A stretch of 31,692 bases of DNA. Origin: a virus. Shown piece after piece: positions 18,608 through 31,669 of the stretch. How positions within the stretch are numbered: the first letter of the stretch is position 1; each line of letters opens with the position of its first letter. A program made the position numbers and the translations under genes. The notes under the pieces are model-generated. The model was not told where the DNA came from. It saw nothing but the letters and a program-made list of their open reading frames with translations, and did no database searches. The DNA lies in the IMG/VR virus record IMGVR_UViG_3300027749_000346, positions 1-31,692 of that record; one strand, given 5' to 3'.

Positions 18608-20769
18608 TGCCATTTTTAATTGACGGCAACCCTTCGCCTTCAGAAATTTCTGATGCGATTAATTACATCTTGGCAAATCTGAGCCCTCAGACACCGCCAG
18701 GTCAATACGTTGTCAATAACAATCCAACAACTGGATTTATTTCAAATACTGTAGGTTCATTGCTTCAATACCAATATCGGTATTTAGATGTTAAATATGC
18801 CGACAATACTGCTGGATTGAACTTTACTGACAACCCATATGGCAGGTTGTATTTTGGCATTTACAACACCGATACAGTCACTGAAAGCACTGACCCAAAT
18901 CAATACACATGGTTTCAGGTTACGGGAGGCTTTGGGGCCACCAAAACACTTTGGGTCGTCACTGCTGGTGGTCGCCATGCAACATTTGCAGCTTCTCAAG
19001 AAGCACCGGATTTAAATCAAAACTGGCGACTTGTACCTGTTCGATCAATTGATCTGGACAATCCGTTTCAACCATTTTTGCAATGGATGTCAATTAAGTT
19101 TGCCACCGATAGCATTGGCACAGGATTTAGCAATAGTCCAACAAGCAAAACTTATTACGGTGTAGCAACGTCAGAAACAAACACCACATCAACAAATCCA
19201 TCAGACTATGAATGGTCGCCATTTACTTTTGGATCAACATATCAGTTGTACTACCGTAGCTTTGGTGGCAGAAACATTTCTCTTGTTCCGGCAACAAGCA
19301 AACCGATTGGCTACATTCCTTATATCTATGGAACAACATTGAATCTTGATGTTGCAACATTGGGTGCAATGAATGACATTGGTATCATTTCCAATGATCC
19401 ATTTATTGTTGAATCGCCATATCGTTATTTGTTGGTGTTGTATGGAACAAGTTCTACGGGCGGTACAACATCCACAGATCCTTCTGGCAAGACTTGGTTT
19501 GGTTTACAACCGTCAGATGTTATTGCTATTGACAGCAATCCTGCCGATTACACATGGTTTTCTGCTGGCGGCACATTTGGATCAGGTTCAAATCTTTGGG
19601 TAAGAACAACTGGTGGAAATACAGTTCAAATTAATTTATCCAATGATGCTCCAGATAGTACTGGATGGTTTAATTTAACTGCTCAAACAGTATCAATTGA
19701 TCCATACATTGATTTGTATATGCGATCAGGATTGGTGGTTACGTCAGTAACAAGCCCGACTTCAGGTCGTATTGGATATTCCAATCTTGGCGCAAATGGC
19801 GTTGTCAATTTGAATCTTGATCCTTATGGATATGGGGCAAATATAGGCGGTTACACATTTAATCCTGCAAGTACTGCAAGTATTGTTGTGGATGAATTTG
19901 GTCGAATTGTTCAAGCTCAAGCTTTAGATACTGTGCTTTACAGCACTTTGCAAACATTGGCGACTTCAGGCCAAACTGCATTTACCTTTTCAAATTCACA
20001 ACCAGATCAAATTCTTGTTTTTCGTAATGGATCGTTTTTAAAACCTGGCACTGATTACACAAGAACATCAACAACGGTCACTTTGTCAAGCGCATGTGCG
20101 TTAAATGATGTGATTCAGATGTATTACATCAGATTAATTGATGCTGCAACATCCGCAGATAAAGTGCCATTTGTTACGCAAAGTCAAACATTGGTTTATG
20201 GACAAACATTAATTACCGGATCAAATATTGATGGTGCTGAAGTGCTGTTTATCAACGGTGCAATGATTGTTGATTCTGATTACGATTACATTGGAACAAA
20301 CCAAGGTTATGAATTGTTTACGCCTTCAGTTGGAGGCAGTTGCAATATTGTTGTATTTTCTTTCAACAATGCGAATGTGCTGATATTTTCAGAAAACTAC
20401 ACGGAAACAAATTACGCAAACACCAATGTTGTGTTTCCAACCCAGTTTTACAGAAACTCGCATTTGATGTTTATGAATGGTGCTTTGCTCAAGCCTAGTA
20501 CAGATTACACAGTTCCTGGATCTGGCACATTGAGTTACAACATAACTTTAATAGGTGCTTTATCTTTTAGCGGTCAGCCTGTTCAATTTATTTCGTTTAA
20601 CAAAGCCGGTGAAGCTTCTGCGTCATCTGGCGGTGCGGCTGGTGTTTTGGGTATGGATATGCCTTATGAACTTGAACACAAACCAAGCATGATGGATTTA
20701 TTTGAAGACATGCAAAAACAACTTGAAACATTAAAATCTGAAATTGAACTGCTGAAAGGTACAAAATGA
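18607..20769 (+). CDS. Large repeat-built tail structural protein
   Basis: This 720-residue protein contains two sets of internal repeats. Residues 58-140, 158-232 and 273-355 repeat a unit with a strand, then Y(F/Y)G or WFGL, DPxxYTWF, a Gly-rich turn and LW(V)xTxGG. Residues 452-508, 525-587 and 595-665 repeat a second unit with xxxFxNGxxxxxxxDYTxxxxTxxL, a motif common in phage fibre and baseplate proteins. The C terminus (696-717) is a coiled coil, LFEDMQKQLETLKSEIELLK. It is probably an elongated trimeric tail appendage between nozzle and fibres. No catalytic motif is visible. It starts as TAATG and ends as ATGA. Confidence 0.65.
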   Translation: MPFLIDGNPSPSEISDAINYILANLSPQTPPGQYVVNNNPTTGFISNTVGSLLQYQYRYLDVKYADNTAGLNFTDNPYGRLYFGIYNTDTVTESTDPNQYTWFQVTGGFGATKTLWVVTAGGRHATFAASQEAPDLNQNWRLVPVRSIDLDNPFQPFLQWMSIKFATDSIGTGFSNSPTSKTYYGVATSETNTTSTNPSDYEWSPFTFGSTYQLYYRSFGGRNISLVPATSKPIGYIPYIYGTTLNLDVATLGAMNDIGIISNDPFIVESPYRYLLVLYGTSSTGGTTSTDPSGKTWFGLQPSDVIAIDSNPADYTWFSAGGTFGSGSNLWVRTTGGNTVQINLSNDAPDSTGWFNLTAQTVSIDPYIDLYMRSGLVVTSVTSPTSGRIGYSNLGANGVVNLNLDPYGYGANIGGYTFNPASTASIVVDEFGRIVQAQALDTVLYSTLQTLATSGQTAFTFSNSQPDQILVFRNGSFLKPGTDYTRTSTTVTLSSACALNDVIQMYYIRLIDAATSADKVPFVTQSQTLVYGQTLITGSNIDGAEVLFINGAMIVDSDYDYIGTNQGYELFTPSVGGSCNIVVFSFNNANVLIFSENYTETNYANTNVVFPTQFYRNSHLMFMNGALLKPSTDYTVPGSGTLSYNITLIGALSFSGQPVQFISFNKAGEASASSGGAAGVLGMDMPYELEHKPSMMDLFEDMQKQLETLKSEIELLKGTK
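18778..19671 (+). repeat. Three protein repeats, DPxxYTWF type
   Basis: Residues 58-140, 158-232 and 273-355 of the tail protein share the order: strand with (Y/F)A(D/T)xxxG, (F/Y)(F/Y)G, then DPNQYTWF, NPSDYEWS or NPADYTWF, then a GxFG turn and LW/LY strand ending in GG. Similarity is at protein level; DNA identity is low, so the duplication is old. Confidence 0.7.
19960..20601 (+). repeat. Three protein repeats, NGxxxxxxxDYT type
   Basis: Residues 452-508, 525-587 and 595-665 share VFRNGSFLKPGTDYT, LFINGAMIVDSDYDYI and MFMNGALLKPSTDYT as anchors, each followed by a strand and a loop leading to a hydrophobic Val/Ile/Phe strand. These are beta-sandwich units frequent in phage tail proteins. 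Confidence 0.7.
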
Positions 20770-21131
20770 CCCAAGCAATGAATTTGGCAAACTTTGCCAA
20801 CAGTCTGGATTCTTCTGGCGGGGTTCCACCCAGTCAGCTTAATGCGCCTGTAACCATTGCCAAAGGCGGTACAAATGCATCGACTGCATCTGCTGCCAGA
20901 ACAAATCTTGGATTGGCAATTGGTACTGATGTGCCATCACCAACAGGTACAGGTGCATCAGGAACATGGTCAATAAACGTCACTGGAAGTGCGGGGGGAA
21001 GTTCAGCTTCTTCAGCAAGTTTAGTAACTACTAATTTCAGCATTCTTGAGTCTGGTGGAAATTTGGTAATTAAATATGGCGCAACAACCATTGTGACAAT
21101 TTCATCTACTGGCACTATCAGCGCGGGATAA
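20766..21131 (+). CDS. Short fibre-like protein with GGTN motif
   Basis: This 121-residue Ser/Thr/Gly/Ala-rich protein carries the fibre-shaft motif IAKGGTNASTASAARTNLG near residues 31-49, the same motif class as the NGGTG sites in the large fibre. The C terminus (LVIKYGATTIVTISSTGTI) is a short beta tip. It overlaps the upstream gene as ATGA and is followed by the glycine-rich adhesin after 13 bases. It may be a detached shaft segment that works with the adhesin. Confidence 0.65.
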   Translation: MTQAMNLANFANSLDSSGGVPPSQLNAPVTIAKGGTNASTASAARTNLGLAIGTDVPSPTGTGASGTWSINVTGSAGGSSASSASLVTTNFSILESGGNLVIKYGATTIVTISSTGTISAG

Positions 21132-21144
21132 AAAGGAGTAAATC

Positions 21145-21861
21145 ATGACAACACAAATCAGCGGTGCATCAATAACTTTTTCGGACGCAACAGTGCAATC
21201 CACTGCTGCTCCCACAGGAATTCCTGTTTTAAACGTCTACACATCACCAGGCACTTGGACAAAACCAAGTAACTTAAAAGCGATCAAAGTCACGGTTGTT
21301 GGTGGAGGTGGTGCTGGCAGTACAGGAAGCGCTGCACCATCAGTAATTGGCGGCGGTGGTGGCGGCGGTGGTGGTTCGTCAATAAATGTTTATCCTGCCC
21401 CATCATTACCAGGCCCTCAACCTTACACTATAGGTAGCGGTGGCACTGGTGGCGTTCAAGGCACGCCAGGTCCTGCACCAGGAACAGGAACTGCGGGTGG
21501 ATCGTCATCTTTTGGTGTTGCCCCAATTACAGTAATTAGTGCCACAGGAGGTTCGTTTGGCGTAGTCGGAGGACCTGCTAGCGGTTCAACTGGCGGCGCT
21601 GGTGGATCGGGATCAAGTGGGCAATTAAATTTACAAGGATCAGGAGGAGGAGGTTCCGCAGCAACTCCGGCTGGTGCTGTTGGAGGTAATGGAGGTGGTT
21701 CTATTTTTGGAGGTGGCGCAAGAGGCGTAGGTGCTAATGGCACTCCAGGTAATGGCACTAATGGAGGAGCATACGGAGGAGGCGGCAGTGGCTCAATTGC
21801 TGGCGGAAACCCTGCTGGGGCAGGTTCGGCTGGTGTAATTATTGTTGAGGAGTTTTATTAA
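21145..21861 (+). CDS. Glycine-rich tail adhesin
   Basis: This 238-residue protein has an N-terminal segment MTTQISGASITFSDATVQST, typical of short phage fibre attachment modules, then a strand pair TSPGTWTKPSNLKAIKVTVV. From residue 52 it is mostly Gly with Ser, Ala and Pro, including nine consecutive Gly at 69-77 and many GG(G)xG turns, and it ends with a strand VIIVEEFY. That plan resembles polyglycine-sheet adhesins at phage fibre tips such as the gp38 type; relation is inferred from composition. AAAGGAG precedes the ATG. A receptor-binding function is likely. Confidence 0.75.
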   Translation: MTTQISGASITFSDATVQSTAAPTGIPVLNVYTSPGTWTKPSNLKAIKVTVVGGGGAGSTGSAAPSVIGGGGGGGGGSSINVYPAPSLPGPQPYTIGSGGTGGVQGTPGPAPGTGTAGGSSSFGVAPITVISATGGSFGVVGGPASGSTGGAGGSGSSGQLNLQGSGGGGSAATPAGAVGGNGGGSIFGGGARGVGANGTPGNGTNGGAYGGGGSGSIAGGNPAGAGSAGVIIVEEFY

Positions 21862-22058
21862 TGAAAGAAGCTTTAATTTCAACCATTGAGCCTTGTGAAA
21901 CAGGTTATCGTGTGGCTCAAGTTGTTGCACAAGGAGAAACATTTCCTGTGTCTACAGATTTGTTTTGGACACCATGTGCAGATGATGTTGTGGCAGATCA
22001 ATTCTGGTACGACCCTTCTGATCAACAAATTAAACCCATTCCACAACCGGAGGCTTAA
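21861..22058 (+). CDS. Small fibre-companion protein (65 residues)
   Basis: This protein follows the adhesin as TAATG and leads into the oxygenase with another TAATG. The sequence MKEALISTIEPCETGYRVAQ and the pieces FPVSTDLFWTPC and VVADQFWYDPSDQQIKPI are a pattern I recognise from small proteins encoded just after phage tail or adhesin genes. It has no membrane segment. Function is unproven; a fibre cap or assembly factor is possible. Confidence 0.75.
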   Translation: MKEALISTIEPCETGYRVAQVVAQGETFPVSTDLFWTPCADDVVADQFWYDPSDQQIKPIPQPEA

Positions 22059-23167
22059 TGTGTAATCAACTGTCTCAGTTCACTATTGAAAAGTATGTAC
22101 ACCTCAAGGGTTTCCTTGATATTGATAATTGCAAAGAATTGACTGTTGAACTAAAACGGTTGGTTGACCAGCAAGTTACCGTCAAAGATCCTCAATGTCC
22201 AAAATCTGAAGCTGTTCACGGCGCTGTAGTGTTTGACAAGTTGCTTGTCGATCTATTGCCGCACTTTGAAAAAGCTTCTGGTAAACGACTGTATCCAACT
22301 TACAGCTATGCCCGTTTATACAAACCAGGCGAAAAGCTTGACATCCATGTTGACAGACCGGCTTGTGAAATAAGCGCTACCTTGACCCTTGGCTTTGAAG
22401 GCAAAGCATGGCCTATTTATATGGGCGATCAAGGCGGCGCAAATGCTTCCAAGATTGAAATGGCTATTGGCGATGCCATTCTGTATCGCGGAATGGACAA
22501 ATATCACTGGCGCAAGAAGTTCAAAGGTGAATGGCAAGCGCAGGTTTTTTTGCATTACGTTGATGCCGATGGGCCGCACAAAGAATGGAAGTTTGACAAG
22601 CGTCAAGGATTGAATTTGCCTGTTCAAGATATGCAGCAATTCATTTACACAGACATTCTGACCAATGAAGCCTGTGATTCATTAATTAAGTTGTACAGCC
22701 AGTCTGCCGTACCCAAAGAGCCACCAATAATTGGTACAGGCACTGGAGCCATTGATAAATCCATCAGAAACGTAGAGCGGGTTCTTTTGCCCACTTACAA
22801 GGATATTGGTGGACGATTGGCTGCGGCTGGCCTTGCTGCCAACCACCACAACTGGAAATTCGACATTACCCATGCGAATCAGGCTGAATTCTTGATTTAT
22901 CCTGCGGGTGGTAGATACCAATCACATGTAGATACTTTCTTGGCACATGGCGAGGATTGTCGTAAACTCACCGTATTGGCTTTTTTGAATGATGATTTCA
23001 AAGGCGGCAAATTTTATTTACAGAACGGTCATGAACGGTTCTATCCTCCGCAAAGTAAAGGCACGGTTCTGGTATTTCCAAGCTTCATAATGCACGGCGT
23101 TGAAGACATTGAAGAGGGAAACAGATATTCAGTTGTTTGTTGGATGGTTGGAAAATTCTTCCGATAA
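22058..23167 (+). CDS. Tandem 2-oxoglutarate/Fe(II) dioxygenase
   Basis: This 369-residue protein contains two double-stranded beta-helix domains. Domain 1 (about 1-175) has HVD at 97-99, a distal His at 150 in KYHWRKKF and the closing strand QVFLHYVD. Domain 2 (about 190-369) has HVD at 290-292, His346 in FPSFIMHGV and Arg356 in GNRYSVVCW, which gives the complete HxD...H...R set for Fe and 2-oxoglutarate. In domain 1 the residue ten after the distal His is Gln160 rather than Arg or Lys, so its cofactor binding may differ. The enzyme would hydroxylate or demethylate a protein, glycan or base; the substrate is unknown. It is coupled to the adhesin block. Confidence 0.85.
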   Translation: MCNQLSQFTIEKYVHLKGFLDIDNCKELTVELKRLVDQQVTVKDPQCPKSEAVHGAVVFDKLLVDLLPHFEKASGKRLYPTYSYARLYKPGEKLDIHVDRPACEISATLTLGFEGKAWPIYMGDQGGANASKIEMAIGDAILYRGMDKYHWRKKFKGEWQAQVFLHYVDADGPHKEWKFDKRQGLNLPVQDMQQFIYTDILTNEACDSLIKLYSQSAVPKEPPIIGTGTGAIDKSIRNVERVLLPTYKDIGGRLAAAGLAANHHNWKFDITHANQAEFLIYPAGGRYQSHVDTFLAHGEDCRKLTVLAFLNDDFKGGKFYLQNGHERFYPPQSKGTVLVFPSFIMHGVEDIEEGNRYSVVCWMVGKFFR

Positions 23168-30709: not shown

Positions 30710-31669
30710 ATGAAAAAATTTACTGACCAAGAGTTTATTGAGCTTTGGAAATCTCATGACGGTAAAGCAAAACAACTTTGCAAAACTACGGGTTTAGATC
30801 ATCGTGGTGTTCTTCGGCGTAGGCGCAATTTAGAAATCAAATATGGTGAATCTTTATTAGCGTCTAAACCTTTAAAAAATGTATCAACCAAACCCAGTGC
30901 GGCTCGCAAAAATTTGGGGATTTTAAATGGCACTGTTATTGTTTTTAGTGATGCTCATTTTTGGCCTAGTGTACATACTACGGCATTTCGAGGACTTTTA
31001 TGGGCTATTAAACAGTTTAAGCCTACAGCAGTTATTGCCAATGGGGATATTTTTGATGGCGCTAGTATTTCTCGCTATCCAAGAATTGGCTGGGATTCCA
31101 CACCATCCGTAATACAAGAACTCAAAGCCTGTGAAATTGCAATGGGTGAAATTGAGGATGTTGCAAAAAAGACACGTTCTAATATGCAACTTATTTGGAC
31201 ATTGGGCAACCATGATGCAAGGTTTGAAAACCGTTTGGCAGCAAATGCGCCCCAGTACGAATTTGTCAAAGGCTTTTCCCTGAAAGACCATTTTCCTGCT
31301 TGGCATCCCTGCTGGGCATGTTGGCCTACGGAGAATACGGTCGTTAAACACCGCTGGAAAGGCGGTATTCATGCTACCCATAACAATACAGTCAATGCTG
31401 GCGTAAACATCATTACAGGGCATTTGCACAGCCTTAAAGTGACTCCCTTTGATGACTATAACGGCACAAGGTTTGGCGTGGATACGGGAACATTAGCGGA
31501 ACCTACAGGTCCACAATTTGAGAATTATTTGGAACTCTCACCTACCAATTGGCGCAGTGGTTTTGCTATGTTGACTTACCATGATGGTAATTTATTGTGG
31601 CCTGAGTTAATTCACACTTGGGCAGAGAACCAGATTGAATTTAGGGGCAAGATACACGATGTATCTTAA
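30710..31669 (+). CDS. Metallophosphoesterase with N-terminal helix-turn-helix
   Basis: This 319-residue protein has a basic helix-turn-helix-like N terminus (about 5-42, ELWKSHDGKAKQLCKTTGLD followed by HRGVLRRRRN), a linker, and a calcineurin-like phosphoesterase domain. The metal-binding signature is complete: DAH at 81-83, GDIFD at 112-116, GNHD at 166-169, HATH at 221-224 and GHLH at 237-240. It could be a nuclease or phosphatase acting on DNA or nucleotides; related phage proteins lack a proven substrate. It is set apart from the lysis cassette by its own leader and may start a different operon. AAGG precedes the ATG by 7 bases. Confidence 0.85.
   Translation: MKKFTDQEFIELWKSHDGKAKQLCKTTGLDHRGVLRRRRNLEIKYGESLLASKPLKNVSTKPSAARKNLGILNGTVIVFSDAHFWPSVHTTAFRGLLWAIKQFKPTAVIANGDIFDGASISRYPRIGWDSTPSVIQELKACEIAMGEIEDVAKKTRSNMQLIWTLGNHDARFENRLAANAPQYEFVKGFSLKDHFPAWHPCWACWPTENTVVKHRWKGGIHATHNNTVNAGVNIITGHLHSLKVTPFDDYNGTRFGVDTGTLAEPTGPQFENYLELSPTNWRSGFAMLTYHDGNLLWPELIHTWAENQIEFRGKIHDVS

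Follow-up and report, generated by a model that had tools for sequence, protein, structure and literature searches.

The DNA analysed here, called the window, is the whole 31,692-nucleotide stretch of IMG/VR record IMGVR_UViG_3300027749_000346, which comes from a freshwater phage. An ORF of 369 aa with an ATG start lies at 22058-23167 on its plus strand and encodes two domains, which we call D1 and D2. Directly upstream are a Gly-rich tail adhesin gene and a 65-aa companion ORF (Table 1). The adhesin matches PF21722 at 43 bits, above the curated cut-off of 24.3, and it also matches tail-fibre families of PHROGs. The companion sits between adhesin and oxygenase, and a TAATG is found at each junction. 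At 21859-21863 the companion start overlaps the adhesin stop by one base, and at 22056-22060 the oxygenase start shares one base with the companion stop. These overlaps make translational coupling plausible, and together with the gene order they agree with the coupling proposed in an earlier, sequence-only reading of the locus. The companion itself may act as a small chaperone or as a tip protein. Positions 30710-31669, at the far end of the window, encode a calcineurin-like phosphoesterase (PF00149, 3.9e-7).

Table 1. Positions in the window of the adhesin block and of the domains and active-site residues of the oxygenase.
Feature	Position	Strand	Remarks
Short tail-fibre-like protein, first in adhesin block	20766..21131	+	phrog_24210 4.5e-05
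Gly-rich tail adhesin, candidate substrate	21145..21861	+	PF21722 Gly_rich_2 7.1e-11; phrog_863 1.4e-33
65-aa adhesin companion	21861..22058	+	1-base overlaps on both sides
D1, residues 1-187	22058..22618	+	Non-canonical 2OG-oxygenase-like DSBH (predicted); phrog_2954 family, named 'ferrochelatase'
D1 H97-V-D99 (proximal His and Asp of Fe(II) triad)	22346..22354	+	Invariant in 69 close homologues and 217 D1s
D1 H150-W-R152 (H150, distal metal ligand; R152, Arg proposed as a relocated 2OG anchor)	22505..22513	+	H150 and R152 in 217/217
D1 Q160 (position of usual 2OG-binding Arg/Lys)	22535..22537	+	R/K in 0/216 D1s
D2, residues 188-369	22619..23164	+	Canonical 2OG-Fe(II) oxygenase domain; PF13640, phrog_61
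D2 H290-V-D292	22925..22933	+	Invariant in 69 homologues
D2 distal H346 to 2OG-binding R356	23093..23125	+	Both invariant in 69 homologues

Folds and sequence families of the two halves

When the 369-aa protein was searched against Pfam, D2 alone was matched (PF13640, 9.8e-15), and D2 is an ordinary PF13640 oxygenase. No Pfam family matched D1, the best being one DUF at 0.21, and a D1 profile compared with PDB sequences gave chance matches only, such as protein G. PHROGs assigns D1 to phrog_2954 (5e-45), D2 to phrog_61 and the whole protein to phrog_3531, which is a fused D1-D2 profile.

We modelled the protein with AlphaFold2. From 63 window-plus-locus sequences the whole protein gave a mean pLDDT of 90.9 and the eight-strand DSBH order in both halves, with the D2 strands spanning 270-365; its pTM of 0.55 leaves the mutual placement of D1 and D2 uncertain. 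D1 modelled alone reached pLDDT 94.1 and pTM 0.89. In Foldseek searches of the PDB, the tandem-DSBH prolyl hydroxylase Tpa1p was the top match of the whole protein. Dictyostelium PHD, P. putida P4H and PHD2 were also at or near the top, and vicilins and oxalate decarboxylase, other two-DSBH proteins, were among the matches. D1 matched P. putida P4H (3.2e-10), SnoN, PHD2, PiuC and vCPH, and its best matches, which are 2OG oxygenases, had TM-scores of about 0.7-0.77 by query length. The nearest PDB fold neighbours of each half are prolyl hydroxylases or prolyl 4-hydroxylases. By these models both halves are DSBH folds, as expected from the earlier proposal of two fused domains, neither of which lacks the beta-helix.

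Many homologues of the protein are present in IMG/VR. Both metal triads (H97/D99/H150 in D1 and H290/D292/H346 in D2), Q160 and R356 are kept in all 69 aligned full-length homologues, which indicates that the tandem motif pattern is not due to chance. D2 combines the DSBH fold, the HxD...H triad and the 2OG-binding Arg that define the Fe(II)/2OG oxygenase superfamily, and the full HxD...H...R set ascribed to it at first reading is thus confirmed. D1 has the fold and an intact triad and lacks the usual strand VIII Arg/Lys. Against a profile built from 85 canonical 2OG domains of phages, D1 aligned with E 8e-5 and a probability of 61% over 144 columns, and this alignment pairs H97/D99/H150 with H290/D292/H346. 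A profile match between D1 and the D2 sequence alone was not significant; it became so with deep alignments.

We rejected the view of D1 as a degenerate second copy, given that its triad is invariant in 217 non-redundant D1s. One genome scan for cellular homologues of D1 matched only a single contig, CANBWJ010000129.1, binned in an Opitutae (Verrucomicrobiota) MAG, whose D1 is 90% identical to that of the window. It is probably a phage contig, and the bin is perhaps a hint at the host.

The D1 family and its 'ferrochelatase' name

Both phrog_2954 and phrog_3531 carry the name 'ferrochelatase' in PHROGs, and D1 homologues of cyanophages and Pelagibacter phages are annotated in the same way in GenBank/RefSeq. 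The sequence-only reading missed the main point, that D1 belongs to a large family of marine phages so labelled. The name is at least as old as Sullivan et al. 2010, where cluster T4-GC 615, linked to the D1 family through S-PM2, is listed as 'Hyp. with ferrochelatase domain' (PMC3037559). Pelagiphage genomics treats the family as heme biosynthesis (PMC9599517), and a marine virus time series reports 'ferrochelatase' as an enriched auxiliary metabolic gene (PMC11561400).

Support for a D1 that acts as a ferrochelatase in heme synthesis, as PHROGs 2954 and 3531 and the GenBank/RefSeq records would have it, comes from annotation only, and we give this reading practically no chance of being correct. 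Seven members of the D1 family had no Pfam ferrochelatase match at E ≤ 10. The top 50 PDB fold matches of D1 are all of the oxygenase superfamily and none is a ferrochelatase. phrog_2954 matched 0 of 14 control genomes, whereas the true ferrochelatase model PF00762 matched 8 of the 14. Profile comparison with E. coli HemH gave a probability of 2%, against the 61% for D1 with the 2OG profile, and D1 is about 190 aa long while a ferrochelatase has 320 aa. With a predicted 2OG oxygenase fold and a profile that misses genomes with real ferrochelatase, the label on D1 and PHROG 2954 is almost certainly wrong.

Our literature search found no paper correcting the label. New here are the unrecognised D1 family, its proposed rebuilt pocket and the correction of a widely used annotation. 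If D1 proteins are 2OG-oxygenase-like, as they almost certainly are, their ecological reading changes and there is no heme story. This assignment also accounts for a reported puzzle, that a 2OG oxygenase lies beside every phage 'ferrochelatase'. Two further PHROGs, phrog_274 ('DNA endonuclease V') and phrog_2297 ('DNA endonuclease'), match prolyl-hydroxylase-type domains like D2 (L081:4253-4816 and L362:780-1289). The endonuclease names may be another mislabel of this type; PF13640 matches S-T4 gp027, which carries an endonuclease V annotation, below threshold (4e-4).

The fusion is not unusual. It belongs to a widespread family with a fused profile of its own (phrog_3531), and its halves also occur as separate genes. 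Our set holds 184 fused ORFs of at least 300 aa and 151 stand-alone D1s, the latter a biased sample, and another 2OG or D1 ORF lies within two ORFs of 131 of these 151. P-RSM4 and S-CAM8 have adjacent D2-type and D1 genes in the opposite order. The fused partners vary and include at least two other hydroxylase types, one of them a true P4H: at L157:4989-6221, D1 is joined to a domain that matches solved prolyl 4-hydroxylases (algal, Bacillus and human P4HA2) at 2.5e-23, and in L136 the partner is divergent. The L157 partner domain also matches phrog_274 at 8e-12. On a D1 tree, the fused or stand-alone state changes eight times, with at least three changes forced by well-supported branches. Such repeated joining of D1 and D2 types argues that D1 and its partner work together.

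The fused proteins of cyanophages S-T4, ACG-2014f and S-SCSM1 (PHROG 3531) share the D1-D2 order and the catalytic motifs of the window protein at about 30% identity. They differ in their 'ferrochelatase' name and linker lengths, and the ACG-2014f copy lies away from fibre genes, near nrdA/nrdB. The PHROG 2954 stand-alones of Kyanoviridae cyanophages and HTVC023P-type pelagiphages are homologous to D1 and share its HxDR...HWR signature, but they are single domains, usually with separate 2OG genes next door. The single-domain P4Hs P. putida PPHD (4j25/4iw3), PHD2/EGLN1 and chlorella virus vCPH (5c5t) resemble each half in fold. Their canonical HxD...H...R is shared by D2, whereas D1 has no beta-VIII Arg and carries one at distal His +2 instead.

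The proposed cofactor pocket of D1

H97, D99, H150 and R152 are invariant in 217 of 217 non-redundant D1s. H97, D99 and R100 lay within the search patterns used to collect these sequences; H150 and R152 are likewise kept in 72/72 of the subset collected by a pattern lacking both residues. Q160 occupies the position held in D2 by the 2OG Arg. The sequence-only reading had noted HxD...H with Gln160 in place of Arg or Lys, and the motif and the missing basic residue hold throughout the family, but Gln is constant only in the close clade. Among more distant D1s this residue varies (Q, C, Y, H, F or S overall), and it is R or K in 0 of 216.

The position of the usual anchor was placed in two ways. 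Register by the terminal strand (HYVD versus WYFD in PHD2) pairs Q160 with PHD2 Arg383. In the D1-versus-2OG profile alignment the partner of R356 is W159 instead, so the placement is uncertain by one residue; residue 159 is R or K in 9/216 D1s. By sequence, the classical 2OG Arg anchor is absent from D1 under either register. The position of the 2OG anchor varies among known subfamilies, and FIH and JmjC enzymes use strand IV. A D1 without the strand VIII Arg/Lys weakens the case for canonical 2OG binding, not the case for the fold.

The 2OG pocket of PHD2 is lined by Ala301, Tyr303, Val376, Thr387 and Trp389, and Arg383 is an essential residue (PMC6332328). The D1 counterparts of the five lining residues are R86, Y88, R152, F164 and H166; these vary little or not at all, R86 being Thr in 5/217. 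Val376 stands at distal His +2, the same place as R152. From alignment and strand parity, we infer that R152 took over the 2OG carboxylate, replacing the usual Arg. D2 would be the canonical unit, with Fe(II) on H290/D292/H346 and 2OG on R356. D1 would be another DSBH unit, binding Fe(II) through H97/D99/H150 and equipped with a rebuilt cofactor pocket in which R152, inward-facing by strand parity, probably grips the 2OG carboxylate, perhaps helped by R86. In this reading D1 would be an active enzyme, and its Arg swap presents a new kind of 2OG pocket for study.

Alternatively, only D2 may be enzymatic, with D1 a non-catalytic DSBH scaffold that recognises substrate or partner like the C-terminal domain of OGFOD1/Tpa1p. 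Tpa1p is the top fold match of the whole protein, its non-catalytic domain is thought to bind substrate or partner (PMC4396695), and D1 does lack the usual 2OG Arg. The ribosomal prolyl hydroxylases OGFOD1, Tpa1p and Ofd1 have two DSBH domains per chain, as in the window protein; however, their enzyme is the N-terminal domain, whereas the canonical enzyme here is C-terminal and both triads are kept. Their second DSBH has no metal site, and the architecture has been reported from eukaryotes only (PMC4396695). The window protein departs from that arrangement, with HxD...H in both halves, and 217 non-redundant D1 copies keep HxD...H and the Arg at distal His +2. Stand-alone D1 genes also exist, which argues against a pure scaffold. 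We regard a scaffold D1 as somewhat unlikely.

Gene neighbourhood and the proposed substrate

For the freshwater clade we counted Gly-rich ORFs, defined by at least 20% Gly and a length of at least 150 aa. One lies at most three ORFs upstream of the oxygenase in 73 of the 95 loci with sufficient upstream sequence, and the companion is placed between the two; such Gly-rich ORFs make up 94 of all 1317 ORFs in these loci. Conversely, among 40 loci centred on the companion, 30 contain the oxygenase in the stretch that was retrieved. Because the loci were chosen for their similarity to the window and certain contigs appear more than once, these are not independent draws. Pelagiphage and S-SCSM1 relatives are also near tail-fibre genes. 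In S-SCSM1 (L083:1-8771), short tail fibre genes are surrounded by seven annotated 2OG-Fe(II) oxygenase genes.

These data lead us to propose, at a probability of roughly 45%, that the window encodes a tandem prolyl-hydroxylase-type protein hydroxylase that is produced together with the tail adhesin and whose target is most likely the adhesin or another fibre protein. The proposal builds on computed features: a DSBH fold and a conserved triad in each half, the Arg swap and the gene linkage. Within it, the adhesin is the best-supported guess for the substrate. The target would be hydroxylated before virions leave the cell. The two units could place two hydroxylations on one substrate, or D1 could position the substrate. 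With the oxygenase so closely linked to the Gly-rich adhesin, hydroxylation of virion proteins can be tested directly.

The target could instead be host-derived or soluble, such as a surface protein, a glycan or a metabolic pool including 2OG/nitrogen signalling. A role in modulating host 2OG/nitrogen metabolism has been put forward for the 2OG oxygenases of cyanophages (PMC3037559), and some relatives lie far from tail genes: besides the ACG-2014f fusion, the D1 of L157 and L158 is beside terminase or polymerase-like genes, the L157 fusion adjoining a terminase-like gene with no fibre genes beside it. Homologues away from tail genes, which the sequence-only reading named as evidence that would count against it, thus occur among these distant relatives, but the freshwater clade is free of such cases. 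These exceptions indicate that adhesin modification is not the role of the whole family. The tight linkage by overlapping genes that joins the oxygenase to the Gly-rich adhesin in divergent freshwater phages, the fold likeness to protein hydroxylases and the fibre genes near the pelagiphage and S-SCSM1 relatives speak against a host or soluble target for the window protein, which we consider unlikely.

The late-operon position could also reflect expression timing only, in which case the oxygenase would be a passenger, expressed late along with the fibre operon but functionally unconnected to it. Gene order does vary. In L166, L167 and L201, which are the same contigs as L024, L034 and L025, the oxygenase precedes the adhesin-companion pair, a pair about 90% identical to the window's companion, showing that the module is shuffled. 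Some phages have adhesin and companion without any oxygenase, and in L187 (4234-4515), L193 and L199 a small cupin-like gene (Cupin_2 7e-4, sub-threshold) takes its slot. The association nevertheless persists when the gene order changes and the remaining genome differs, and a passenger gene seems to us quite improbable.

A wider reading than our proposal for the window is that PHROG 2954 is a large unrecognised 2OG oxygenase family with its Arg anchor at distal His +2, pairing as neighbour or fusion with prolyl-hydroxylase-type enzymes for tandem hydroxylations on phage tail adhesins. We hold this generalisation to be rather doubtful; if true, post-translational modification of virion fibres would extend across freshwater and marine phages.

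The adhesin sequences were inspected for a proline target signal, on which their Pro-Gly content proved uninformative. Of 73 adhesins, 34 share a P..PGxQ stretch, with few oxygenase-less adhesins for comparison. The adhesin composition is 5.9% Pro and 24.7% Gly, and Pro-Gly pairs are about as frequent as expected, as estimated from this composition.
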